Of a stretch of DNA of 64,000 nucleotides, positions 709-24,226 are shown piece after piece; within the stretch, counting starts at the first letter, position 1, and each line of letters opens with the position of its first letter. The DNA comes from Moritella sp. 24. GTDB taxonomy: Bacteria; Pseudomonadota; Gammaproteobacteria; Enterobacterales; Moritellaceae. A model generated the notes under the pieces. That model ran no database searches, was not told where the DNA came from, and saw nothing but the letters and a program-made list of their open reading frames with translations. The DNA is taken from contig NZ_CP056123.1 in the NCBI RefSeq assembly GCF_018219155.1, positions 4,163,505-4,227,504 of the forward strand. Reading direction: 5' to 3'. Made by a program: the position numbers and the translations under genes.

Positions 709-3114
709 TTAAAACGATTTAAAAAAATCAATTCCTTTTCGTTTATCCCACTCCAGTTTGAAAGATGAAAGGATATAATCATAATCGTCAATAGAAATTC
801 CGTAGCAATGGGCCACCAAAGCGTCCAAGAATATTGGATCTGCACAATACGTTACTAACTCAGCCTGCCGTGAAATAGCGTCACAGAACTTTCTATTTCT
901 ATAATCTTTACCCAATAACCCTACAACACCGTTTAATATCGCATCAGAAATAGAAATGCTTATATTCTCCACGATTATTTTACGTTGAAATAAATCAGGT
1001 GATGGCACAGCTATTTGTTTAATTACCGTCTGTGTTAAGTCAATACCAGACATTTTCATTCTGACTAAATAATCGAAAACTGTTGAGTTCATAATAGACA
1101 ATGCTAGTGCTAGTTCTATTTCACTGTCTAATTGGAGAAATTGAATTGATTGTGATGCAGGACAGTGAGGAAGAATAGTAGCGAGACATGTTCGAGTATT
1201 ACTCGCTGATGACATACTGCGCCACATTAAAGAATAATTTTTAGAGTAATTCTTAGTTATTCTGTCCCATTTATCCTTTGAAATAAAGAAGCGAGATTGA
1301 GGTACAATATTACAATCTTCCTTCTCTACATCATTTAGAATACGAGCCGAAGCCTTACCAGAATAAATTGCTGCTTCATCCAAACCTTGATAAGTAGAAA
1401 ATTTACCATCATATTGATGGATAAATTTCCCTTCATATATTGGTAAGGTTCCTTCTAAATTTGAATTCACTATATCAGCAGCATGACTAGTATAGTGTAC
1501 GAGTCTCCCATAATGAGCGGCTCCAAAAACTTCATTAAATGTAGAACAATTAGAGTAAATTTTTCTCAAAAAAGACAACTCTGCTGGATCTTTAATGGTA
1601 GGCAACATACCAGTTTGGGGATTCAGTTCTTTTAATGCCTGATAAGGAAAGTCCCAAAACTTATCCTCTAAGATCTCTTTTGACTCTTGGAGCAACCCAG
1701 CATAACTAAAACTATTTTTTTCATTTAAAGCATTTATTAAAAAACAAAAACGTTCTCTACCATCGATCTGAAATATTTTCTTTTTATTAATAAAATCAGC
1801 AACAACACTAAGTCTATTCCGATTAACTAGATCATTAAAAAAGAATTTATTTACAGAGGTACTTAAAAGTCCTGTTTTAACCAATAACCCAACACTTCCA
1901 GAAGAGTTAACTAACTTCTCGGCCAACTCAGTAAATAAAGCGTATGTATTCAACTCTCCATGGCTAGAATGTTCGAAATAGGGATTGTTTTTTATCAATT
2001 TTTTCGATTTTTCGTAAGATAACTTAGCCTTAAGATAGTAATTATATAATTTTTCATTATCTACAAATAATTCTGAAATCCACTTTTCCCGTTCTTTTTT
2101 ATTATGCAATGTTAAAATACTTGGAGCGAGTTCCATAAAAAATGATTTTTCTTCCAGCCTAACTTTCTCCCATGGAGGATTACCGAGAATGATATCTAAT
2201 TTTGGTAACAGTCTCTTAAGGTCAACCCCCATCGATTCTGAATAATAAATCCCACTGTTAAAAATAGTTATTTTTTCTTCCCAAGTAGCATTATCATTAT
2301 TCGTTAACAACGGATTCCCTAAAATAAAGTTACCTTTCATATCATCTATACACAAAGGGTCATTTATAAATTCAGCTATAGAAAACATTGCAATATCTAA
2401 TGCTAAATAATCAATATCAACAGCATATATACCCTGAACTATTTTTCTGAAATTATTTTTCTGCTCTTTTCCTTCAACGCCTAAAAGGTCAAAAAATTCT
2501 TTAATTACTCTGAGGTAAGAAATTAAAAACCGGCCAACACCACTTGATATATCGGCTACCTTGAATGAACATATCAAACCTATAATTTGAGATTTTTGTT
2601 GAGTATTGAAGTGCTTGATTTTATTTTTTTTAAATCCTAACGATTTTTCTATATGATTCCAAAATAAAAAACTGGCACAATTATCTGATAATTCTTTAGG
2701 TGTAAAATAAGCACCTTGAATATTCCGACCACCGTGTAATATATTTGCTTCAATCTGACCATTTTTAAATGTGAAATCAGTAGCTATTATATTTTCATAT
2801 AACTCTTCGACCTCAGACATCCTGCTTATCTCATTCGGACATAAACGAGTAAGTAAAACCTCTAGTTCACAATAATAGTCAGCATTCATTATCAAGGGCA
2901 ATGTTGATATATAAGCATGACTAGATAGCTCACAACCTAAAACTCTGCGGCATAATTCATTTACGATCGACGCTAAAATATCGTATTTAACCTTTTTATA
3001 TTCAAGGGGATCTTCAATAACATCTATATAATGGAGCGGAATAAAGTCAGATAATTTTGTCTCCATAAAGCTAATAATTTCATTATAAGCTTTATCATCA
3101 ATGAGATATTTCAT
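709..3114 (-). CDS. N6-adenine DNA methyltransferase (Eco57I/TaqI-type), second of a pair
   Basis: 801 residues. The SAM-binding motif I is seen as VADISSGVGRFL (about residues 203-214) and the adenine-methyltransferase catalytic motif IV as ILGNPPWEKV (about 309-318). A long C-terminal half looks like the target-recognition region of Eco57I/TaqI-type enzymes. The methylatable base would be adenine (NPPW/NPPF motif, family knowledge). The gene begins 2 bp after the stop of the upstream methyltransferase, so they are co-transcribed and probably work as a pair. The DNA is visibly AT-rich compared with the housekeeping genes to the right, consistent with transfer. A BREX PglX or DISARM methylase is less likely because no partner of those systems is visible. 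Confidence 0.8.
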   Translation of the reverse strand: MKYLIDDKAYNEIISFMETKLSDFIPLHYIDVIEDPLEYKKVKYDILASIVNELCRRVLGCELSSHAYISTLPLIMNADYYCELEVLLTRLCPNEISRMSEVEELYENIIATDFTFKNGQIEANILHGGRNIQGAYFTPKELSDNCASFLFWNHIEKSLGFKKNKIKHFNTQQKSQIIGLICSFKVADISSGVGRFLISYLRVIKEFFDLLGVEGKEQKNNFRKIVQGIYAVDIDYLALDIAMFSIAEFINDPLCIDDMKGNFILGNPLLTNNDNATWEEKITIFNSGIYYSESMGVDLKRLLPKLDIILGNPPWEKVRLEEKSFFMELAPSILTLHNKKEREKWISELFVDNEKLYNYYLKAKLSYEKSKKLIKNNPYFEHSSHGELNTYALFTELAEKLVNSSGSVGLLVKTGLLSTSVNKFFFNDLVNRNRLSVVADFINKKKIFQIDGRERFCFLINALNEKNSFSYAGLLQESKEILEDKFWDFPYQALKELNPQTGMLPTIKDPAELSFLRKIYSNCSTFNEVFGAAHYGRLVHYTSHAADIVNSNLEGTLPIYEGKFIHQYDGKFSTYQGLDEAAIYSGKASARILNDVEKEDCNIVPQSRFFISKDKWDRITKNYSKNYSLMWRSMSSASNTRTCLATILPHCPASQSIQFLQLDSEIELALALSIMNSTVFDYLVRMKMSGIDLTQTVIKQIAVPSPDLFQRKIIVENISISISDAILNGVVGLLGKDYRNRKFCDAISRQAELVTYCADPIFLDALVAHCYGISIDDYDYILSSFKLEWDKRKGIDFFKSF

Positions 3115-3116
3115 AT

Positions 3117-5648
3117 TTATTTAAGCTCCAAAAAATTCTCGTAAAAGTGTAGGATTGGTGCACCTTTAAAAACTTCAAGGTGAATAACGGGTAGTCTATT
3201 TGATAGCCACGATGTAAAACTTAAGCTTAGATGTTCTTCACACTCAACTTGAATATTAGGAAATAAAACTTGTGAATTAAACTCTACATCTTTAATATTC
3301 ATTTTAATTTCAGACCAATTCGATATATCATTAAAACCCATACATTTTAAAACTAGCTTATGGAGAAAGTCTTCAAAGTAAAGCACGATAGTTTTATTCA
3401 AACCATTTATATTACCAGATAAAATTCCCATTATATTATTAATGTCAGGATCGAAATGAGACGATAAAACACTCATTACATTATCATTTCCTAATATATT
3501 ACCTTTTGTTTTACAACCTTTAAATTCAGTGGCTTTATCTAAACTTGAAAAAATAACGTTATCTAAATCGGTAATATTGTAACTATCAAAAGGTAGGTAT
3601 TTCCTTGGATACATTTTCTTATCAATATTTTCAATTTCATCTAAAGGTAAACTTAAAAGATGAAATATTTTACTATTGATATCATCTTCCAGTTGGAAAA
3701 TTTTGAATGCACACTTCACATCAGAAATAATGTTAGACAATACCACTTCAATAATTTTATTTCCGTCGGTGTTGAAATTATCAAATTCATATAAATAATT
3801 ATTAACCAAATAATTATGCTTTACTTTTTTTAATTTTATAACTTCTTTAGATTGCGCACTAAGCTCTTCATTAAATGCAATTTCCTTAGTCATAGGAAGC
3901 ATTCCAATATAACCTGCTGCGATAGTTAATTTCGGACTAAAATTTCTAATCAAGTAACTAGCTAAAATTGAGTTCAAATATGCTAAATGGCTATATACAT
4001 CACCTTCTTTCACATGAATTCCAGGCCCTGATGCAACAAATATTTGCCCTTCAATTTTTAACCTAACATTTAACCCTAAGGTCCCTGTATCACTAAAAAC
4101 TAATTGTGTTTTTTCTAATTTATCAACATTCCTTAAAGCTGAACCTTTATTTTGTCGAATCAGCTCCCCATTATCCCCCCATCGAACGCAATAGTGATTT
4201 AGACCAAACCATTGGCAATAACCACCACCTTTACTTACAAGTTTCCATTCTTTATCATCTTTTCTCTTCCAGATAAAATCTATGAACTTTTTATGATCAC
4301 CTGTACTTGAGCCTTGCATTGGAGTTGCAAAATCACGATAAGAACCATTAGCGTTTAATATATTCAGTACCGTTGATCCCAACTGATATTTAAATGAGTT
4401 ATCGCCATGGATATTAAGTAGTTTTAAGTCCACATTAACAGATAGATCTTTAATATCACCAGTATTTAGAATTCTTTTCTTTTCGTTAAATGTTAAACCT
4501 GTAAGATTAACAAATAGGGTTTTATATCGTTCATGTTTCTGATTTTTATGTATAGATACAAGAGCTACAGATGCTTTTTCACCTGAAATTGCCTGAAATG
4601 CACCGGCACCGAGATCTATACAACTAGTTAGTTTATAGTCATTTAGAAACATTTCTCTGAAGTTATTAAATGATTTTAAATTCATCCAACTTTTTTGAAT
4701 AACAACACCTAAGACATCATTTTCTTGCATGATAGACATCATATTCTGAAGGAATGACACACACATATCGCCATTAGATAGAGGGAAATTACCTTTCAAG
4801 TGCTCTCTCAGATCTTCCGTTATATCTCTTTTTCCCGCAAAAGGTGGATTAGTAAGAAACATCGTTGGTTGAGATTTATCGATCCCTAATTCTATTTTTT
4901 CTTTTATGTCATAAAATCCATATTGCGAGCGGTAAGGCTGTATAACTGGCTCAACCTTTAGAAGAGTTTTGGCGAGAGTGCTTCCTTTCGTGTATAGACT
5001 AATTCTAGATAGTTCAACCATACTTTGGTCAATATCAAAACCAATCAATTGACTTGATAATAAATTTTCGACTATCGAGGAATAATCATGATTACTATTC
5101 AAACATTTAGCATTAAACATTTCTTCTAAGGCTATAGTTAAAAAGTTCCCCCCACCACAAGCAACATCTATAACTTTAACTTTTGCACTTAATGATTCTT
5201 TAATAAGATAACGGGCCATATAATCATCAGTAAAAAACTGCGTGGTGGTAAACAATCGTTCATTTTGTATTTTAACACCAGATCCCGGAGTTAAAATTTC
5301 TTTGAATGTACTCTTTAAAGCTCTTTTCTTAAGCTTTTCATATAATTCAGAGAAAAAACAGCATGAGTTGTTTTGATAATTTTTAGCGAAAGAAAATACC
5401 AACTCACTTATACCTTCAAGTTCTTCCTGCGAGTATGACTCAATTATGTTTTTAGCAGATGACTCGTACTTTGATATGTTCAAGTCCACTGGCAGCTTAA
5501 AATCAAGCAAACATTCCAAACTAATAGGACCATCAAAGCCAGAGTCCACATTAAAGCATATGTGTTTGAAAACAAAGTATAAATTACCAGAAGCCCATGT
5601 TTTCCAGTCAATATCTCCGCGTTCTAATTGTATTAGTTTTTTTATCAT
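3117..5648 (-). CDS. N6-adenine DNA methyltransferase, first of a pair
   Basis: 843 residues. Motif I is VIDVACGGGNFLTIA (about residues 158-172) and motif IV is FLTNPPFAGK (about 266-275), the signatures of N6-adenine methyltransferases. The N-terminal 150 residues and the long C-terminal part have no motif I recognise and may bind DNA or a partner. It shares its general plan with the downstream gene but is not a close duplicate. No clear Shine-Dalgarno precedes the ATG at 5648. Being followed 2 bp later by a second methyltransferase suggests hemi-specific methylation or a two-subunit modification complex, probably protecting against a nuclease encoded to the left of the window. Confidence 0.8.
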   Translation of the reverse strand: MIKKLIQLERGDIDWKTWASGNLYFVFKHICFNVDSGFDGPISLECLLDFKLPVDLNISKYESSAKNIIESYSQEELEGISELVFSFAKNYQNNSCCFFSELYEKLKKRALKSTFKEILTPGSGVKIQNERLFTTTQFFTDDYMARYLIKESLSAKVKVIDVACGGGNFLTIALEEMFNAKCLNSNHDYSSIVENLLSSQLIGFDIDQSMVELSRISLYTKGSTLAKTLLKVEPVIQPYRSQYGFYDIKEKIELGIDKSQPTMFLTNPPFAGKRDITEDLREHLKGNFPLSNGDMCVSFLQNMMSIMQENDVLGVVIQKSWMNLKSFNNFREMFLNDYKLTSCIDLGAGAFQAISGEKASVALVSIHKNQKHERYKTLFVNLTGLTFNEKKRILNTGDIKDLSVNVDLKLLNIHGDNSFKYQLGSTVLNILNANGSYRDFATPMQGSSTGDHKKFIDFIWKRKDDKEWKLVSKGGGYCQWFGLNHYCVRWGDNGELIRQNKGSALRNVDKLEKTQLVFSDTGTLGLNVRLKIEGQIFVASGPGIHVKEGDVYSHLAYLNSILASYLIRNFSPKLTIAAGYIGMLPMTKEIAFNEELSAQSKEVIKLKKVKHNYLVNNYLYEFDNFNTDGNKIIEVVLSNIISDVKCAFKIFQLEDDINSKIFHLLSLPLDEIENIDKKMYPRKYLPFDSYNITDLDNVIFSSLDKATEFKGCKTKGNILGNDNVMSVLSSHFDPDINNIMGILSGNINGLNKTIVLYFEDFLHKLVLKCMGFNDISNWSEIKMNIKDVEFNSQVLFPNIQVECEEHLSLSFTSWLSNRLPVIHLEVFKGAPILHFYENFLELK

Positions 5649-6081: not shown

Positions 6082-6688
6082 TTACGGCTTATAAGAATAA
6101 AACATCTCTGCCATTCCAGCATCACCAACTCGATTACTCACCGTATCAACCCAAGCATCAAATTCATCCATATATCGTAGCTTATCAACGCCTAATCGCG
6201 CACTAACACCATCCAACGACATCCACTGTTTTTCCCCCTTAGCTTTAGATCTACGGGCTTTCTGGTTCAATAATGCAATCATATTATCAATATCACCACC
6301 AGCAACCAGCTTAGGATTCGCCAGTAACAAGTGACGAGCAGATGGGTATAGAGTGTCGTTATAGAACATTGGCTTTGACTGACCTTTCAGTTGTTCGCGT
6401 ACTTCAATACCATTACCAGACTTAAGCTTCCCCCGCTAATGTCGTTTTAGCCATACTTAATGCCTTAGCCGCTTCACTAACACTCTTATATTTAACCCCG
6501 TTAATCTCAACAGGTTTACTATGCGCTTTACTAGGCCGTGATTCAGCACCTACAGCTTGTGCTAATGACCAACCAAATTTAGTCATTCGTTCATTAACTA
6601 ATTTAGCTTCAATGTCATGATGACGGGCAGCAGCAGAACGACTAGCGAATTCAACACCATCAACAATATGTACATTTTCAGTATTCAT
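6082..6688 (-). pseudogene. Frameshifted element gene of unknown function (two fragments)
   Basis: The first fragment starts at the ATG at 6688 (GGAG 6-7 bases upstream) with MNTENVHIVDGVEFASRSAA and stops at 6422 after AKTTLAGEA. The second fragment (6082-about 6421) is open in another frame and includes KSGNGIEVREQLKGQ before its first Met at 6369. Removing one G from the G5 run at the junction fuses them into AKTTLAGKLKSGNGIEV, which reads naturally, so one ancestral protein of about 200 residues is likely. The two N-terminal repeats (VEFASRSAAARHH and VKYKSVSEAAKAL) resemble NUMOD1-like helix-turn-helix repeats. A decayed second copy lies at 23850-24226. The frameshift could be a real mutation or a homopolymer sequencing error. 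Confidence 0.65.
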
Positions 6689-6726
6689 TTGTAACTCCGA
6701 AATATAATAAAAATAAAGAAGATAAT

Positions 6727-6782: not shown

Positions 6783-7469
6783 TTAAAACGGTAAGATGTC
6801 TGTATAGGCTGCTTTAGACTGTTTAGTGCCCAGTGTTACCTTGACCTTAATCTGCTCATATAATTCAAGCATTGATTGCACCACCTCAAGATTAGCCGGA
6901 GGTTTACCCGAAGAATTTACCCAGTTGTTTGTCTTCCAGTTAGGTGCGAAATTATTTAAGGTATTACCTACACTCGCATTCAGTCCGATAATTTCAACGG
7001 TATCAGCACCCTGTTTAATATGATTATCCGCCAGCTTTAATGCCTCATAACCAAGCTCTAGGTACATCTGCGCAGGTGTAGCACCTTTAGATGTTTTAAT
7101 AATATGCGTATCGCAATCTAAACTCTTAATCGTGGAACCATTACCACCAGTACCAAGCTTGCAAGTTAATGTGACGACTTTGGGCTGCTTAGGTGCACCA
7201 ACTTTAGCTAGATAGGATAAGTCCATCTTAGGGTTAGGTGATGAATTAGAGTAACGGTTACGCTTAGGCTTATTACTTTTCAGTCGTGCGGTACGCTCTT
7301 TAATTAACTGCTTAAGATATTTCTCTGCTTCTTCATGTGTAAAAGCACCTTTGTTATCACCACCGGGTTTACCGATTGCGATAGCAGCACACTCAGCCCA
7401 TGTAGTTACAACGCGAGCTTCTGTATCGTTAATAGCAGCGTAAAATTTATATTTTGGTTTTTTGGACAT
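6783..7469 (-). CDS. RNase HI-fold protein with N-terminal hybrid-binding domain, catalytic acids missing
   Basis: 228 residues. The ATG at 7469 is chosen because GGAGGG lies 8 bases upstream; an upstream start would add 12 residues. Residues 7-55 (KYKFYAAIND...TTWAEC...AFTHEEAEKYL) match the caulimovirus VI/RNase H1 N-terminal domain that binds RNA:DNA hybrids. Residues about 98-228 resemble RNase HI, best seen in NWKTNNWVNSSGKPPANLE followed by a LYEQIKVKV strand. Aligned by eye to E. coli RNase HI, the active-site positions D10, E48 and D70 read C, Y and N, and the final His/Asp segment is absent, so the domain looks inactive. It lies directly downstream of the polymerase gene and may bind replication hybrids rather than cut them (inference). 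Confidence 0.65.
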   Translation of the reverse strand: MSKKPKYKFYAAINDTEARVVTTWAECAAIAIGKPGGDNKGAFTHEEAEKYLKQLIKERTARLKSNKPKRNRYSNSSPNPKMDLSYLAKVGAPKQPKVVTLTCKLGTGGNGSTIKSLDCDTHIIKTSKGATPAQMYLELGYEALKLADNHIKQGADTVEIIGLNASVGNTLNNFAPNWKTNNWVNSSGKPPANLEVVQSMLELYEQIKVKVTLGTKQSKAAYTDILPF

Positions 7470-7588
7470 GATTAGTCCCTCCGTGTTGAAGTTAAAATTT
7501 GCCACAGGATGTAGCTATTAATTGATATTTGAAATGTGTGTGTTGATGTTTATCTGTATCCCCTACATTCAACTCACACATGAGAAGA

Positions 7589-7611
7589 AAGCCCTTATCG
7601 CATAAGGGCTT
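7589..7611 (-). terminator. Terminator of the polymerase gene
   Basis: 10-bp perfect stem AAGCCCTTAT (7589-7598) / ATAAGGGCTT (7602-7611) with a 3-nt loop, 31 bp past the polymerase stop. On the minus strand it is followed by TTTCTTCTC. Confidence 0.7.
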
Positions 7612-7642
7612 CGATATATAGGTATTTACGAAGAAATATTAT

Positions 7643-10327
7643 TTATTGCTTTAAAGCTTCACGTAATTGAGGTCGTGATGATGCTTCAAACAATCGTTCT
7701 GGGTTGAAGTGAGGAAACTTCGCAACCAACAATTTAGCAAACTTGATTGTTAGCTCGGTTAAAGGCACAGCACCTTCAACCAACTTATTCCGACCGCCAC
7801 TTCGAACAGCAGCAGCTTTAATCGGATATCCCTGAACCGTCAACCATAGTGCCAATTGAGCAGCATTAATATCTGACTTAAGCATCCCAGCATGTTCATG
7901 CCCGTAAAAACGCAAGAACAAACGAGCCATAAAACTATCCGAAGTTTCATCGGCTTTTAGATTCACAGACTTATTCTTTGATGCTTTAGCCATTGCTAGA
8001 CGGTCTTGCCAAATGATCCAATCATCCATCGTTTTCAAGCAATTATTCTTACGCCAGCGATCAAATCGTAAGCGTGTAAATAACATATCGTCTAAAGAAT
8101 GATGCGGTTTGGACTGCAAACTAATATGGGACTGACCTTTAACATCAATCATTACAGGAGTAATAAGTTCACGTTTTTGGTCGAATTCCATGTTCAATAA
8201 AATATCCCTTTGTTCATTCATCATGTCTTTACGCCCAATGAACATTTCACGAGTAGAGGTCAAATAAGAACCATCAGTCAGCTGACCAAGCACTCGATTT
8301 AAATAAAGGTCCACCATATAAGCATTTTGATTGACCACTCTCCGATCAACCATCACACCGCCTTTAGCTAGAATAGGCGCAAAACCTTCACTTTCCAGCA
8401 CTGTATATTGAGCTCTAGTCTTTGCCCCAATAAGTTGCTTCGCTTGATGTTTCAATTCCAAGATCTCACCACCGTCAGGATCGATGCGATGAAACTGTTC
8501 ACGAAAGCGTTGACAGATAGGACCGTTAAGATCAAACTCATCTAAAGTTGCATTGGTAAGCATTCCATCTGTAGTAAGTGAAACGACGGTTCTATGTTCA
8601 GGAATACTAGCAACCATTTCGCCCATTAGCGCACGAGCAAGTCCCGTGGTATAGGCTGCAAAGAATGGATTAGTTAGTGTTGATGGTGGAAGCTGTTTAG
8701 AGTAACCAGCTTGTATATCAAATGCAGTTTTAGGACGTAGAGATTGTGAAAACTTGCCATAAAGCGTGTTACCGATCTCTTTAAATAAACGTTCCTCGAA
8801 GCCGCCTTTCTCATTCGCTTGTCTGTTCTCCCTCACCCAACCCATAAAGTTTTCAAAGATACGAACATCATCAGCCCAAGGAATCACGAACGCTTGTTTG
8901 ATGGTAATGATCGCCCCTTGGTTAGATGCAACCTCAAGCTCGTGTCCAGTGCAGTGCGTTTCACCAGTAAGTGGGAATATCAAGCCTTTATCTGAGCGTA
9001 CAGCTAAACTAGGGAAACGTGTCGAGGCCGGAAATTCAAAGCGAACCCAAGCCAATGCACATTTATCACCAAATAAATCATTAAGATTTTTGGTCATAAA
9101 CATACGATCGTACGCTAAATTTTTTAACCCTAAGGAAATCGCTGTATAACAGCTAGGGGCATCGAAATCATTCCATGTATCAATATGTGTAGGACCAGAA
9201 ATAAATGATTCATTACGACCACCGTGATAACACTGTGTTGCAAAGTTTTCCAACGTCATTCTTGCCGTTACAGGAACATCTCTAGTTAGCGTCAGTGGTT
9301 CATTACGATCAACAGGCCAAACTTCTTTAGTTACTTTCATAAAACCAAATAACTGACGATAACCTTTACTGTCTGCAAGCCCATTTACAAAGGCTTTTAC
9401 AGCAATTCCACCGATAGTGAATGGGACAGATTTCAGACCGATATCTTTGCAGAATTTAGAGATGCGTTCAAAATGAAGTGATGTAATAATCGCATCGTTC
9501 ATAGCGTAAGCTTCAAAACCAGCTGGATCGCCTTTTCGATATTCATCCATACGTGATATTGAATATGTCGCAGGAATATTAAGCTTCGGTTTATTTACCA
9601 AAATCCCGATATTAAACAAAGACTTACCGCTTGGCGATAACAACATACTGTCGTAAAAGGTAATGTATAAGGTGTGGTAATTGCGGGTTTTATCATAAAC
9701 TTCCAACGGTTCTTTATCGATACGACGAGATAAGACCTCATCAAGATCAAGACCGTAAGGTTCATCAAGACTGGCAACAGTCTTACGTAATCCTTTGACG
9801 TGAGTTTTAAGCTGTTCAAAAGCATTACTGAAGTTAAATAAATCCGCTTTGAGAAAATGAGCTACCAAAATAATATCGGTAGGCCAGCATGTTAATACAT
9901 CTTCAGCCATTGCTTTTTCTAATGCCAAAACCAAGCATTTATCCAAAGCTAATCGACCAGACTTCTTCGTTGATTCAGGGTATAAGATAATGCTTGATGA
10001 CTTATCTCCATGCCGCACCACAAATTGATAACTCAATATACGATTGTAAGTACCACAGGGTGATTCCGTGTATTCGGTATCCAGCGACACAGTAGGACGT
10101 TCAAAGAACTTAGTACCGATTCTACGCTTACTCTTTTTAGCTTTATCTTTACCCCTGCTCTTAGCAGAGGAATTATTTACTTTTTCTTCATATCGGGCAG
10201 TGGGGATCTCAGCTTCGTAATCGACAAGATTTCCTTCACCCCACATAGATAATGAACCATTATCTTCATCACTGAAATCAAGTACTACAGGCGCTTCCTG
10301 TTCCCATACCATTAATTCGTTATTCAT
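7643..10327 (-). CDS. Primer-independent family B DNA polymerase (piPolB) of a pipolin
   Basis: 894 residues from the ATG at 10327, which has GGGGAGC 6-12 bases upstream. Exo I is SLDTEYTE (D83, E85), Exo II is around AHFLKADLF (D162), and Exo III is YAMND (Y274, D278), so a 3'-5' exonuclease is expected. The polymerase domain shows YHGGRNE (from Y367), motif A DAPSCY (D389), motif B KEIGNTLYG (K516, N520, Y523) and motif C TTDG (D587), followed by a KTRAQY segment. Length and motif spacing match pipolin polymerases, which can start DNA synthesis without a primer (family knowledge), rather than phage protein-primed polymerases of about 570 residues. The basic Lys-rich stretch near residues 55-70 may bind DNA. 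Neighbours are an excisionase, an integrase and a tRNA-Leu, the usual pipolin setting. Confidence 0.85.
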   Translation of the reverse strand: MNNELMVWEQEAPVVLDFSDEDNGSLSMWGEGNLVDYEAEIPTARYEEKVNNSSAKSRGKDKAKKSKRRIGTKFFERPTVSLDTEYTESPCGTYNRILSYQFVVRHGDKSSSIILYPESTKKSGRLALDKCLVLALEKAMAEDVLTCWPTDIILVAHFLKADLFNFSNAFEQLKTHVKGLRKTVASLDEPYGLDLDEVLSRRIDKEPLEVYDKTRNYHTLYITFYDSMLLSPSGKSLFNIGILVNKPKLNIPATYSISRMDEYRKGDPAGFEAYAMNDAIITSLHFERISKFCKDIGLKSVPFTIGGIAVKAFVNGLADSKGYRQLFGFMKVTKEVWPVDRNEPLTLTRDVPVTARMTLENFATQCYHGGRNESFISGPTHIDTWNDFDAPSCYTAISLGLKNLAYDRMFMTKNLNDLFGDKCALAWVRFEFPASTRFPSLAVRSDKGLIFPLTGETHCTGHELEVASNQGAIITIKQAFVIPWADDVRIFENFMGWVRENRQANEKGGFEERLFKEIGNTLYGKFSQSLRPKTAFDIQAGYSKQLPPSTLTNPFFAAYTTGLARALMGEMVASIPEHRTVVSLTTDGMLTNATLDEFDLNGPICQRFREQFHRIDPDGGEILELKHQAKQLIGAKTRAQYTVLESEGFAPILAKGGVMVDRRVVNQNAYMVDLYLNRVLGQLTDGSYLTSTREMFIGRKDMMNEQRDILLNMEFDQKRELITPVMIDVKGQSHISLQSKPHHSLDDMLFTRLRFDRWRKNNCLKTMDDWIIWQDRLAMAKASKNKSVNLKADETSDSFMARLFLRFYGHEHAGMLKSDINAAQLALWLTVQGYPIKAAAVRSGGRNKLVEGAVPLTELTIKFAKLLVAKFPHFNPERLFEASSRPQLREALKQ

Positions 10328-10400: not shown

Positions 10401-10835
10401 TTATTTTTGGTATACAGACCATTCAATGGCTGACACTTTTTTATCATCGCTAATGTCAATAAGCACCTCAGCAATGGCATCAGAAAGACCAGAGATATCC
10501 GAGTATTTCTCTTTATCAAAGATATAGAGTGGACGTTCATTAAGACCAATAACAAGTAAGTGACCAGTCTTCGGCGACTCAAATGCTTCTTTAATAATAC
10601 GAGCATCAATAAAACCGCCATTTTCAAGTACGATGGCATAGTCTTTAGATGGTTTAACGCGTTGCTTCACTTTCTCAAACAGCTCAGATGACTTATCGCT
10701 GTTATCAAAAATGATTTGACGACATTGCATATCAAATAATACGGTTACTCCTTCTGAGTGGACAGCAGTAGTACCTGCACTTGCGTTTACGATACCGTTT
10801 GATGTACGAACGAATAGTGTTTTTGTAGTCGACAT
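10401..10835 (-). CDS. Conserved-looking pipolin protein of unknown function upstream of the polymerase
   Basis: 144 residues with a good ribosome site (GAAGGA) before the ATG at 10835. I see no known motif. The middle part alternates hydrophobic strands and acidic helices, as in a small globular alpha/beta protein, without a signal peptide or membrane segment. It sits between the excisionase and the polymerase in the same orientation and is separated from the polymerase by a terminator-like leader. A role in replication or its control is possible but only inferred from position. Confidence 0.6.
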   Translation of the reverse strand: MSTTKTLFVRTSNGIVNASAGTTAVHSEGVTVLFDMQCRQIIFDNSDKSSELFEKVKQRVKPSKDYAIVLENGGFIDARIIKEAFESPKTGHLLVIGLNERPLYIFDKEKYSDISGLSDAIAEVLIDISDDKKVSAIEWSVYQK

Positions 10836-11358: not shown

Positions 11359-12516
11359 TTAATCAAAAGTAAAGTTAGGTAGCATTACATCAACGGTTTT
11401 CTGTGATGCTTGAGCTAAGTGAATATTTTGGTGGTAGGCATAACGCTCAGTGACACTCACACTCGAATGACCAAGACTCTGTTGTGCCAATCGAATATCG
11501 TTAGTCGCAGCCAACATGGTTGACGCATAGGTTCTACGCAGATCGTGAATGGTGAAATACCCAGCCCATGATCCATCTTCTTTCATCAGTTGTTGAATTC
11601 GATCCATACAAGCACGCGGAGCACCAATATGTTCACCTTCATTTATCATTGACGGAAACACCCAATGGTTAAAAGCCACATCAAGGCATTTACGTAAAAT
11701 ACGTTTCGCAGGTTCAGATAAATAGATCCGTTGCGACCTACCCGACTTAGTTATAGGTAACATGATGGAAGAAAGGTCATCGGAAATCATAGAGCGAGTC
11801 AGACTGATAACATTACCAATGCGCATACCGCTCACCAAACTCAGCATTAACGCACTAGCATGATAAAAATTATTATCACTACAAGCATGGCGACAAAATG
11901 ATTCAGCCTCTTTCGGCGATAACACGCGATCTTTAAAGTTATTCTCAGGTAACTTTTTAATACCTTTACACGGGTTCTTATCGATAATTTCAAGATCTAC
12001 AGCCAACGAAAAAAGCTTGGATAAAAAAGCCTTATAACGATTAACGGTCGAGTTACTAAGTTCTTCAAGACTATTCAAAAAATTCTGAGTATCACGACGA
12101 GTGATATCCGAAACACGCTTATCACCCAATAATTTCATGACCAGCTTAGATCTAGACATAAAAGTTTTATGAGCGCGGTGATGCTTGAGGCTATAAGGCA
12201 CTGCATGTTCATCAAAGAACTGCTGAATCGTTAAGCGAGTACCTTTTTGATAAGCACCAGATTGAACATCAGCAATGAATTGGTAAGCTAGCTGATTAAA
12301 TTCAGCAAATTTCATTTCAGGGTACGTACCGAATGACTCGTAATAACGTTGACCTTTCCAGCTAAAACGAACAAGCCAGCGCATGCTTTTATGAGTAGCA
12401 AGAACTCGAAGACGGGGATTACGATTCCAACGATACTCAACACCTTGTTCACCCTTAGCAGGGCGAATCAAGGCATTGAGTACCTTTTGGGTAAAATCAA
12501 TAGGGGGATTACTCAT
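11359..12516 (-). CDS. Tyrosine recombinase (integrase) of the pipolin
   Basis: 385 residues. The catalytic set is visible: Arg in SGMRIGN (about residue 231), His-x-x-Arg in IHDLRRTYAS (about 324), His in LGHSS, and the nucleophile Tyr in TERYAYH (about 359). The N-terminal part carries an arm-binding segment (RWLVRFSWKGQRYYESFGTYPEM) and a SAM-like core-binding domain. It is similar to phage/island integrases that act at tRNA genes. Co-transcribed with the excisionase just downstream. It most likely catalyses integration and excision of the element at the tRNA-Leu. The start has only a weak ribosome site. Confidence 0.85.
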   Translation of the reverse strand: MSNPPIDFTQKVLNALIRPAKGEQGVEYRWNRNPRLRVLATHKSMRWLVRFSWKGQRYYESFGTYPEMKFAEFNQLAYQFIADVQSGAYQKGTRLTIQQFFDEHAVPYSLKHHRAHKTFMSRSKLVMKLLGDKRVSDITRRDTQNFLNSLEELSNSTVNRYKAFLSKLFSLAVDLEIIDKNPCKGIKKLPENNFKDRVLSPKEAESFCRHACSDNNFYHASALMLSLVSGMRIGNVISLTRSMISDDLSSIMLPITKSGRSQRIYLSEPAKRILRKCLDVAFNHWVFPSMINEGEHIGAPRACMDRIQQLMKEDGSWAGYFTIHDLRRTYASTMLAATNDIRLAQQSLGHSSVSVTERYAYHQNIHLAQASQKTVDVMLPNFTFD

Positions 12517-13870: not shown

Positions 13871-13945
13871 TTATCTTAACGAATAATAAAACATTAGCGT
13901 CATGCTGATACTCACACTGAGCTGGACATGTGAGTGTCATTGTTA

Positions 13946-13973
13946 TATCTACCCCTACGTGTAAATCACACAC
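13946..13973 (+). repeat. 28-bp direct repeat, copy 1
   Basis: TATCTACCCCTACG, 4 nt, then AATCACACAC. The same two blocks with the same spacing occur at 21210-21237; only the 4-nt spacer differs. A looser relative lies near 7551-7581. The region 13871-14135 otherwise holds no gene. Confidence 0.55.
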
Positions 13974-14135
13974 CCACTCAACTCACTGAACTATAATAAA
14001 ATTACTGCATAAACTAAAACGAAAAATCAAACGTACTCATTTAACTAGCAAATGAAATCAACAATAAATTAGTTAAAATTTTAATAGTCCTAACGTTTCA
14101 TCTAAGGGCTATACAATCCATAGGGAAAATAAAAA

Positions 14136-21080: not shown

Positions 21081-21209
21081 CTCTACCTCTTTTTGTTTAT
21101 TTAATTAGGTTAATGTCAGATGCTATACGTGAACTATCTATTACACCACATTTATTTTCCTAGGTATTTCACAGTATTAAAAAAGTAGACACTAGTGCGT
21201 GCTACTTGT

Positions 21210-21237
21210 TATCTACCCCTACGCACTAATCACACAC
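21210..21237 (+). repeat. 28-bp direct repeat, copy 2
   Basis: Identical blocks and spacing to 13946-13973. The pair brackets 7.2 kb containing the WYL region, DUF2787 cluster, second integrase and HNH cassette. Confidence 0.55.
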
Positions 21238-21320
21238 ATACCACAAACCCATATGGCATAGGACCACCCAGCAATAACCAATTACGAAATAATAACGCTG
21301 CAACCTTCACTATTAATAAA

Positions 21321-21637: not shown

Positions 21638-21659
21638 AGCCCCAACTTTCGTTGAGGCT
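21638..21659 (-). terminator. Terminator of tRNA-Leu
   Basis: 9-bp stem AGCCTCAAC / GTTGGGGCT (one G-U pair) with a GAAA tetraloop on the minus strand, 14 bp past the CCA, followed by TTTGTTGT. Confidence 0.75.
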
Positions 21660-21673
21660 CTATTACTTAAATA

Positions 21674-21758
21674 TGGTGCCCGAGGGCGGACTTGAACCGC
21701 CACTCCTTTCGGAAGAGGATTTTGAATCCACCGCGTCTACCGATTTCACCACTCGGGC
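21674..21758 (-). tRNA. tRNA-Leu (anticodon CAA)
   Basis: 85 nt. On the minus strand, acceptor GCCCGAG pairs with CTCGGGC, followed by encoded ACCA. The anticodon loop is TTCAAAA and the T-arm is GGCGG TTCAAGT CCGCC. A long variable arm (TTCCGAAAGGAG) marks a class II tRNA. The anticodon stem GTGGA/TCCTC has a T-T mismatch at pair 28-42. The 3' end points to the pipolin. tRNA-Leu is the known pipolin target in enterobacteria. Confidence 0.9.
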
Positions 21759-22120: not shown

Positions 22121-23788
22121 TTATAGGTGGAACTTATCTAATCGATGTTTATTTAAAGGACTCTCGTCTCCAATTTCCTTCAAAGCCTGCCTAGTATTTA
22201 TCATAAGTTCAGAACAACTACGCCCCAGCAATAAACAGACTCTAATATAGTCGGTAAGATCATCCCCCTTAAAGTCTTTAAACATTGTTTTTAGCTGATC
22301 TTTACTGAGCTGACCAAGACGTTCTGCATCTTCTAAGTTATAAGAGTTTTTTCCTTTCCATCGTTCAAGTATATCCAAAGGGGAGTCATCTACCTTAATC
22401 TCATCATACTTAGCTTGTAATCGGTCTCTAAACTCTCCGCCTTCAACACCAAAAGGATGAAAATCCATATTTTTCATATTAAAAATTTCACACCGGTCTG
22501 TCATTTGGTCAATATAGAAATCCGTTAATTCATTAGCTTTACTCTCAAAACCAAGATCCCGAATTAACTTAATACCTTTGCTGTATTGAGATGTTGATAG
22601 ATCTTTAGCTGATACCCTCAAACCAATCTCCATCGCTTCGATAACCTGCTCTACATCATTATCAAATGAATGATGAAAAATATTCCAAGCCTTTGAGTAC
22701 TCTTTACTCCTTTCCAAAGCCTCTAGCTCAACTTGCCTTGCATTACACAACGCTAGCCACTTTTCTCTATAAATAAACCCCTGCTCGATACTATCCGCAA
22801 TAACTATGTCCAACTCATCTGTTAGCATATAGCCATATTCACTCAACCTGGCATTCCATTCCTTTGCCTTATCTTCATCACCACCCTTTATAGTTTTCCT
22901 TAAACCACTCTGCTTCAAAAAATCAAAACTAGGTATAGAATCATCACCACCACGACAGTAATAACACCAACTAAAAACAACTACAGAATGAACAGCCTGA
23001 TATTTAAGGTCACAATGATGGTCAGCTATAAGACTCAATACTTCATGTGTGTGACGCTCAATTTTCTTAAGCACTCGAATGTTTTTAATATCCAATTTAA
23101 GACAACAATCTCGAATATGGGGATACTGATCTTGCATATCGACAGCTAAATCAAAACATTCTGCAGCGCTAGGCTCGAAATGAAGTTGTTTATCAATTAT
23201 CTTCTCTTTATATGTAAAGTAATCATCCAAATCTTTAGCGTCTTCATTAAGTAAAATAACGACTTTACAACCCTTTTGCTCTTTTAAAAACGAAACTAGA
23301 CCTAAAAAATCTTTAACACTCAGGCCTGCACTATGTCTTTCAATATCATCAAAGCAAATAAGCGTCTCGTTTAAAGACAAGAAAGATAAGGAACTAAAAA
23401 CATCCTCTAAACCAGAACCTAACCCTTTTACAGCAATATCTACCAATGGTTTAGCGATACTTTTGACTACACCTGTAGATTTACGACCCACCTGTTTAAC
23501 TAAGCTCTGATAATTCTGCTTAAAGGTATTAATATTGGGTTTCTGACCAATAATATTGGTATCTACAGTGTTGTCAAAAATCCCTCGTTTCAAGTCATCC
23601 AGTGAGTTAATACCAAAAAGTGAAACATAACAATACGAATTCAGAGCTATTTCATCTTTAAACTCAGATATATACTTATCCCAGCTATAAGTTTTACCAA
23701 TACCCCAGCGCCCTTTAATAGCAAGGACCTCAGGTTCACAACTCTTTAGAAAAATTTCAATCTGTTCCTTAACCAATTCAACCGACAT
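22121..23788 (-). CDS. P-loop NTPase, KAP-like
   Basis: 555 residues from the ATG at 23788 (a GTG 9 bases upstream is possible). Walker A is GRWGIGKT (about residues 26-33) and the Walker B-like segment is ETLICFDDIERHS (about 147-159); a conserved helical C-terminal half follows. This recalls KAP/STAND-type NTPases that occur in islands and some phage-defence systems. A GSGLEDVFSSLSF segment between the two motifs might be membrane-associated. It stands alone, without an effector gene next to it, within the decayed element right of the tRNA. Confidence 0.6.
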   Translation of the reverse strand: MSVELVKEQIEIFLKSCEPEVLAIKGRWGIGKTYSWDKYISEFKDEIALNSYCYVSLFGINSLDDLKRGIFDNTVDTNIIGQKPNINTFKQNYQSLVKQVGRKSTGVVKSIAKPLVDIAVKGLGSGLEDVFSSLSFLSLNETLICFDDIERHSAGLSVKDFLGLVSFLKEQKGCKVVILLNEDAKDLDDYFTYKEKIIDKQLHFEPSAAECFDLAVDMQDQYPHIRDCCLKLDIKNIRVLKKIERHTHEVLSLIADHHCDLKYQAVHSVVVFSWCYYCRGGDDSIPSFDFLKQSGLRKTIKGGDEDKAKEWNARLSEYGYMLTDELDIVIADSIEQGFIYREKWLALCNARQVELEALERSKEYSKAWNIFHHSFDNDVEQVIEAMEIGLRVSAKDLSTSQYSKGIKLIRDLGFESKANELTDFYIDQMTDRCEIFNMKNMDFHPFGVEGGEFRDRLQAKYDEIKVDDSPLDILERWKGKNSYNLEDAERLGQLSKDQLKTMFKDFKGDDLTDYIRVCLLLGRSCSELMINTRQALKEIGDESPLNKHRLDKFHL

Positions 23789-23849
23789 GGCAAACACCCG
23801 AAAAAATAATTATATCAATAGGTTAACATACATTTAAACATGTAATAAA

Positions 23850-24226
23850 TATCAATCATTCCAGCATTACTAATTCGATAACTCACCATATCAACCCGAA
23901 TATAAAATTCATCCACATACAGCAACTTATCAACGCCTAATTTCGTACTAACTCATCCAACGACAATCCCAGCATTTCACCTTTAGCCTTAGCTCTACGG
24001 GCTTTCTACTTCAATAACGTAATCATCTTCTCGGTATCACCAGCAACCAGTTCAAAGTTCGCCAGTAGCAAGTTACGAGAAGATAGGTATAGAATATCGT
24101 TATAAACCATTTGTTTTACTGCCCTTCAGCTACTAGCTCATTAACTAATGTAGATTCAAGGCCATAATGACGGGCAGCAGCAGAACGACTAGCGAATTCA
24201 ATATCGTTTATAGTTAATTTAGACAT
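23850..24226 (-). pseudogene. Decayed copy of the 6082-6688 element gene
   Basis: Starts at the ATG at 24226 (MSKLTINDIEFASRSAAARH) and stops after 36 codons. Downstream DNA remains clearly similar to 6090-6380 but has stops and frameshifts. Relative to the left copy, an internal segment corresponding to about 6388-6590 is deleted. The preserved start suggests what the intact family protein looked like. Confidence 0.75.

Follow-up and report, generated by a model that had tools for sequence, protein, structure and literature searches.

A predicted non-cutting RNase H1-like protein with an SSB-like C-terminal tip is linked to one clade of Moritella and Vibrio piPolB polymerases

A pipolin of Moritella sp. 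24 encodes, next to its polymerase of the primer-independent piPolB type, a 228-aa RNase H1-like protein which has lost its catalytic acids and ends in a tip resembling that of SSB. The loss of the cutting site combined with an SSB-type tail probably makes this protein an adaptor rather than a nuclease. The explanation we prefer, and to which its sequence features lead us to give roughly even chances, is a non-cutting nucleic-acid-binding adaptor (or decoy) that joins exchangeable binding modules to a constant dock for SSB-interacting proteins. Our analysis covers a window, that is, the whole stretch of 64,000 nt taken from GCF_018219155.1 (NZ_CP056123.1, positions 4,163,505-4,227,504, forward strand), and coordinates are local to this window unless another locus is named. 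The gene occupies 6783-7469 on the minus strand, as an earlier note on this DNA had indicated, with its ATG at 7469 and its stop codon ending at 6783.

The RNase H-like gene lies 173 bp downstream of the gene for piPolB (7643-10324, minus strand), a family B DNA polymerase with its polymerase motifs kept, and is read in the same direction. This polymerase has 37-46% identity to piPolBs from enterobacteria (E. coli among them), Aeromonas and Psychromonas, and a single tree unites it with the piPolBs of E. coli, Citrobacter, Aeromonas and Psychromonas. Upstream of piPolB we find a small conserved pipolin gene (10401-10835, minus strand), which has no Pfam match and holds the same position in Vibrio and Moritella elements, and a tyrosine recombinase (11359-12516, minus strand; Pfam PF00589, E 1.3e-21). 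On the other side lies a gene with I-TevI-type DNA-binding repeats (6082-6691, minus strand), which a stop splits into two ORFs in Moritella sp. 24 and which is intact in relatives (200-216 aa). An att-like repeat of 27 nt (21659-21685) is located at the end of a tRNA-Leu found at 21674; its second copy lies about 22.6 kb leftward, outside the window, and no complete tRNA was found there. Judged by its genes and repeats, namely an intact piPolB-type gene, tyrosine recombinases and att-like repeats at tRNA-Leu, the element is a pipolin. A Leu-tRNA gene is also the insertion site of E. coli pipolins (PMC7385651), and the element resembles the pipolins of PMC7385651 and PMC9710591 in its piPolB, its tyrosine recombinases and its tRNA-Leu insertion. 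It differs from them by the RNase H-like gene, which is confined to one Moritella/Vibrio piPolB clade and of which a word search in these two papers found no mention.

Both the RNase HI-like scaffold and the N-terminal hybrid-binding domain that had been proposed for this protein are borne out. The AF2 model, built template-free from a three-sequence alignment (mean pLDDT 62.7, with low confidence for the N-terminal domain), has a predicted RNase H fold; its core (residues 94-214; 6828-7190, minus strand) follows the order strand-strand-strand-helix-strand-helix-helix-strand, with the last helix missing. A single-sequence model was poor (mean pLDDT 52) and was left out of the analysis. The best PDB matches of the AF2 model are nearly all of RNase HI type with a Foldseek probability of 1.00, the top structures being human RNase H1 (6vrd and 2qkk) and E. 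coli 1rnh. When the seven-member family was compared with active RNase HI profile against profile, the core alone reached 98.9% probability (E 2.8e-17) and the N-terminal domain alone (residues 2-60; 7290-7466, minus strand) reached 98.3% (E 2.2e-14) against RNase H1 hybrid-binding domains, with controls at or below 0.5%. Single-sequence Pfam scores of the window copy are below threshold, that for Cauli_VI (E 0.09) included; in relatives, the hybrid-binding domain (PF01693) is above the cut-off in genome G433 (E 8.8e-10) and in V. anguillarum (E 4.7e-14). At the level of profiles and the predicted structure, an RNase H1 architecture of hybrid-binding domain plus RNase HI core is confirmed. The position of human F58 is N in the window copy according to our own alignment, which suggests that some hybrid-binding contacts are lost. 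The host chromosome encodes a paralogue of the same domain composition with all catalytic motifs intact (locus L002, 1486-2280). The two proteins are 24% identical and alike in the N-terminal hybrid-binding domain, linker, core and W-K...W handle, whereas the element protein lacks the catalytic acids, the His loop and the last helix, carries an SSB-like tip and is the product of a mobile-element gene.

Active-site residues of RNase HI have been replaced throughout this core. In the window copy D10 corresponds to K104, E48 to Y136 or M135, D70 to L163, and D134 has no counterpart; no acid is found in the site under any alignment used. The core register was taken from hhalign, and the MAFFT gap placement after the first core strand was discarded. 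In the seven relatives, the D10 column contains K, K, K, H, V, Y, C and the column beside D70 contains N, N, D, N, D, D, D; nowhere in the family alignment do all seven members share an acid. The His124 loop and the last helix are absent in all family members, the window copy having instead a short tail that ends in TDILPF. The earlier note had read C, Y and N at the positions of D10, E48 and D70 and had the last His/Asp segment missing. All of these losses stand, although two of the three named residues are one column off: C103 is the neighbour of K104, and N164 that of L163. In the alignment to RNase HI the acids do not meet in the active site, and none of the homologues surveyed beside piPolBs retains the active-site columns. 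Without an invariant acid and with such a variable D10 column, the metal site appears to be gone. The loss of cutting is well supported by these alignments, and a two-metal-ion nuclease is excluded as far as sequence allows. An active enzyme with shifted acids was considered and rejected on the profile-profile comparison. The substrate handle is kept as W178 (or Y), K179 (or R) and an invariant W183, which we take, by our own alignment, to be W85, K86 and W90 of E. coli.

The C-terminal tip TDILPF (6786-6803, minus strand) resembles the end of the host SSB (locus L059), DFDDDIPF. The pattern D-x-x-P-F closes every copy with an intact 3' end (TDILPF, TDDLPF, DDDAPF, DNDAPF), and in G433 the frame past an in-frame TAG ends in VDNDAPF. 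Only 9 of the 1519 ORFs of at least 80 aa in all loci end in PF, and eight of these nine belong to the RNase H-like family, with one locus counted twice. The residues before the tip cannot be aligned between Moritella and Vibrio, while P-F and an acid are kept. The window tip has a single acid and is weaker than DDDIPF. Apart from the tip, the protein is unlike SSB: it has no PF00436 match, no OB fold and no Gln-rich linker, and the one SSB of the host genome is encoded elsewhere. More than 14 proteins dock on the C-terminal peptide of SSB (PMC5872125), and RNase HI is among its partners (PMC11253446). According to Petzold 2015 and Wolak 2020, as cited in PMC11253446, the E. coli enzyme contacts this tip through its surface. 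E. coli RNase HI is likewise an RNase H-type protein in the SSB network, yet by that cited account it binds the tip, whereas the RNase H-type protein described here carries one, so that the relation would be reversed. We infer that the tip may function as a dock for SSB-interacting proteins.

Surveys of 296 relatives, of 395 genomes of the order and of 228 genomes of the genus of V. mytili, together with one genome-contig scan, yielded a tree of 43 piPolBs, with a few species present twice under two locus ids; the RNase H-like relatives were located through these piPolB-guided surveys. The gene or a trace of it is present in all ten members of one Moritella/Vibrio piPolB clade (support 1.0), which consists of the window, PE36, G010, V. 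mytili, G506, G589, G601, G433, G622 and V. anguillarum DSM 21597, and in none of the 33 other piPolB loci within up to about 10 kb on each side, some contigs ending sooner. Eight members of the clade have full-length or stop-interrupted copies, G622 has a remnant and V. anguillarum DSM 21597 has the hybrid-binding domain alone. One in-frame TAG each interrupts the copies of G010 and G433, and six loci have open frames; the sample comprises only eight nearly complete sequences. The place of the gene is constant across the clade, after piPolB and before the gene with I-TevI-type DNA-binding repeats. When the protein itself was used for pattern scans, genome and viral contigs yielded no match; the piPolB alignment had none in viral contigs either, and tblastn against plasmids and phages hit ordinary RNases H only, over short stretches near their W-K handle. 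A dN/dS of about 0.28 between the Moritella copies indicates purifying selection, and this value together with the clade-wide presence led us to reject a local degenerate gene. Four elements (G010, G433, G622 and V. anguillarum) have only a broken or truncated gene, so that it must be dispensable at times. The earlier idea of a non-cutting partner for the primer-independent polymerase is well supported by this distribution and by the loss of the acids everywhere, although it overlooked the SSB-like tip and a swapping of N-terminal cassettes.

In Vibrio, the first 100-165 codons or so form a cassette that is swapped between flanks which are 85-97% identical, while the tip-bearing end is constant. 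The piPolBs of V. mytili, G506 and G589 are 92-94% identical, and their RNase H-like proteins share 20-42% of the first ~165 residues and 88-97% of the last ~63. DNA identity in the same trio is about 95% in the leader and only 14-57% immediately past the ATG; near codon 165 it is back at about 90%. These are discrete 5' replacements from the gene start to about codon 165 (loci L061, L120 and L121). G601 and G433 display the pattern with an earlier breakpoint, and a 5' replacement of this kind is seen in L122 against L123; no swap is seen among the Moritella copies. With its N-terminal modules exchanged and its tip-bearing end constant, the protein resembles a specificity factor, and the swapping suggests a role in specificity or conflict.

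Given the SSB-like tip, the protein more likely recruits SSB-interacting proteins, or competes for them, than binds hybrids passively. As an adaptor, the protein would be a pseudo-RNase H1, derived from RNase H1 and able to bind nucleic acid but not to cut it. The hybrid-binding-type domain and the W-K...W handle would hold a hybrid, an R-loop or forked DNA where piPolB copies the element. The free D-x-x-P-F tip would imitate that of SSB and dock PriA, Pol III chi, RecO, RecQ, exonuclease I or RNase HI, which would be brought to the element or drawn away from SSB. Such an adaptor may serve piPolB-driven replication or maintenance of the pipolin. We count against it the one-acid tip of the window copy, the moderate confidence of the AF2 model, the broken gene in four elements and a terminator-like hairpin in the leader. 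More tentatively, and with chances clearly below even, a dead RNase H1 refitted with an SSB-type tip could be a dedicated accessory of primer-independent replication in which the N-terminal modules set the structure or partner recognised in each pipolin. We found no description of a protein serving piPolB in pipolin replication, and the RNase H-like protein is a specific candidate. If true, a pseudo-RNase H with an SSB tip would be an unusual entry of a mobile element into the host SSB network.

The cassette swapping makes a factor for counter-defence or competition the main rival of the adaptor. Its N-terminal modules would recognise a varying target, perhaps a rival element or a defence of the host, and its tip would tie up SSB-interacting host proteins such as RecQ, RecO, exonuclease I or RNase HI. 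Replacement of the first ~100-165 codons between flanks that are 85-97% identical is typical of specificity genes on which diversifying selection acts, and the gene is lost in some elements, but the strict link to one piPolB clade fits better with a role in replication, and in Moritella no copy is swapped; we consider this rival unlikely. A somewhat smaller chance is left for the reading of the earlier note, in which the protein binds hybrids or R-loops, protecting or marking the structures of primer-independent replication, and the tail has no docking role. In its favour, the catalytic acids are lost and the hybrid-binding domain is kept, even as the sole part left in V. anguillarum; against it, a P-F at the very end and a preceding acid persist in all intact copies while their neighbours change.

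Two further alternatives were considered. The in-frame TAGs in G010 and G433 and the remnant in G622 could be signs of a functionless, decaying gene, which is very improbable in view of the dN/dS between the Moritella copies, the tip kept across genera and the open frames in six loci. Hardly credible at all is an active nuclease with a rebuilt active site. An Asp or Asn does stand beside the D70 column in all copies, but the core has no invariant acid that maps to the site, the columns of D10, E48 and H124 are either missing or free to vary, and the last helix is absent.

The leader between piPolB and the RNase H-like gene (173 nt; 7470-7642, minus strand) is structured. A terminator-like hairpin, which a simple terminator scan did not call, separates the two genes and is followed by the motif GTAGGGGATA with TGTGTG/CACACA arms at 7538-7579. 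This motif of about 45 nt, with its arms around GTnGGGGATA, is repeated in Vibrio and Moritella pipolins. The window has copies at 7538-7579, about 13930-13975 and about 21190-21240, all on the minus strand, and others are found in L060 (12735, 19948), L062 (6413, 12533), L122 (4853, 11189), L123 (8925, 15026) and L053 (14789, 18324). The interval from piPolB to the RNase H-like gene always contains one copy. In the V. mytili relatives the arms have changed to CATTGC/GCAATG with pairing retained. An origin, a recombinase arm site and an RNA element are candidate roles for this motif.

Several other features of these elements were observed. One Moritella genome (loci L050 and L051, G010:C1:4549000-4587000) has two piPolB elements with very different polymerases within about 20 kb, and in one of the two a TGA interrupts piPolB and a TAG the RNase H-like gene. 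The cargo of the window element includes two large Eco57I/MmeI-type methyltransferase proteins in tandem (709-5648), probably a restriction-modification or other defence module. Just past tRNA-Leu, a KAP-type P-loop NTPase gene (22121-23797) lies between diverged repeats at 21.3 and 25.1 kb, which look like old att flanks. A diverged second copy of the I-TevI-type repeat gene (23843-24201), also beyond the tRNA-Leu end, is probably a trace of another element.
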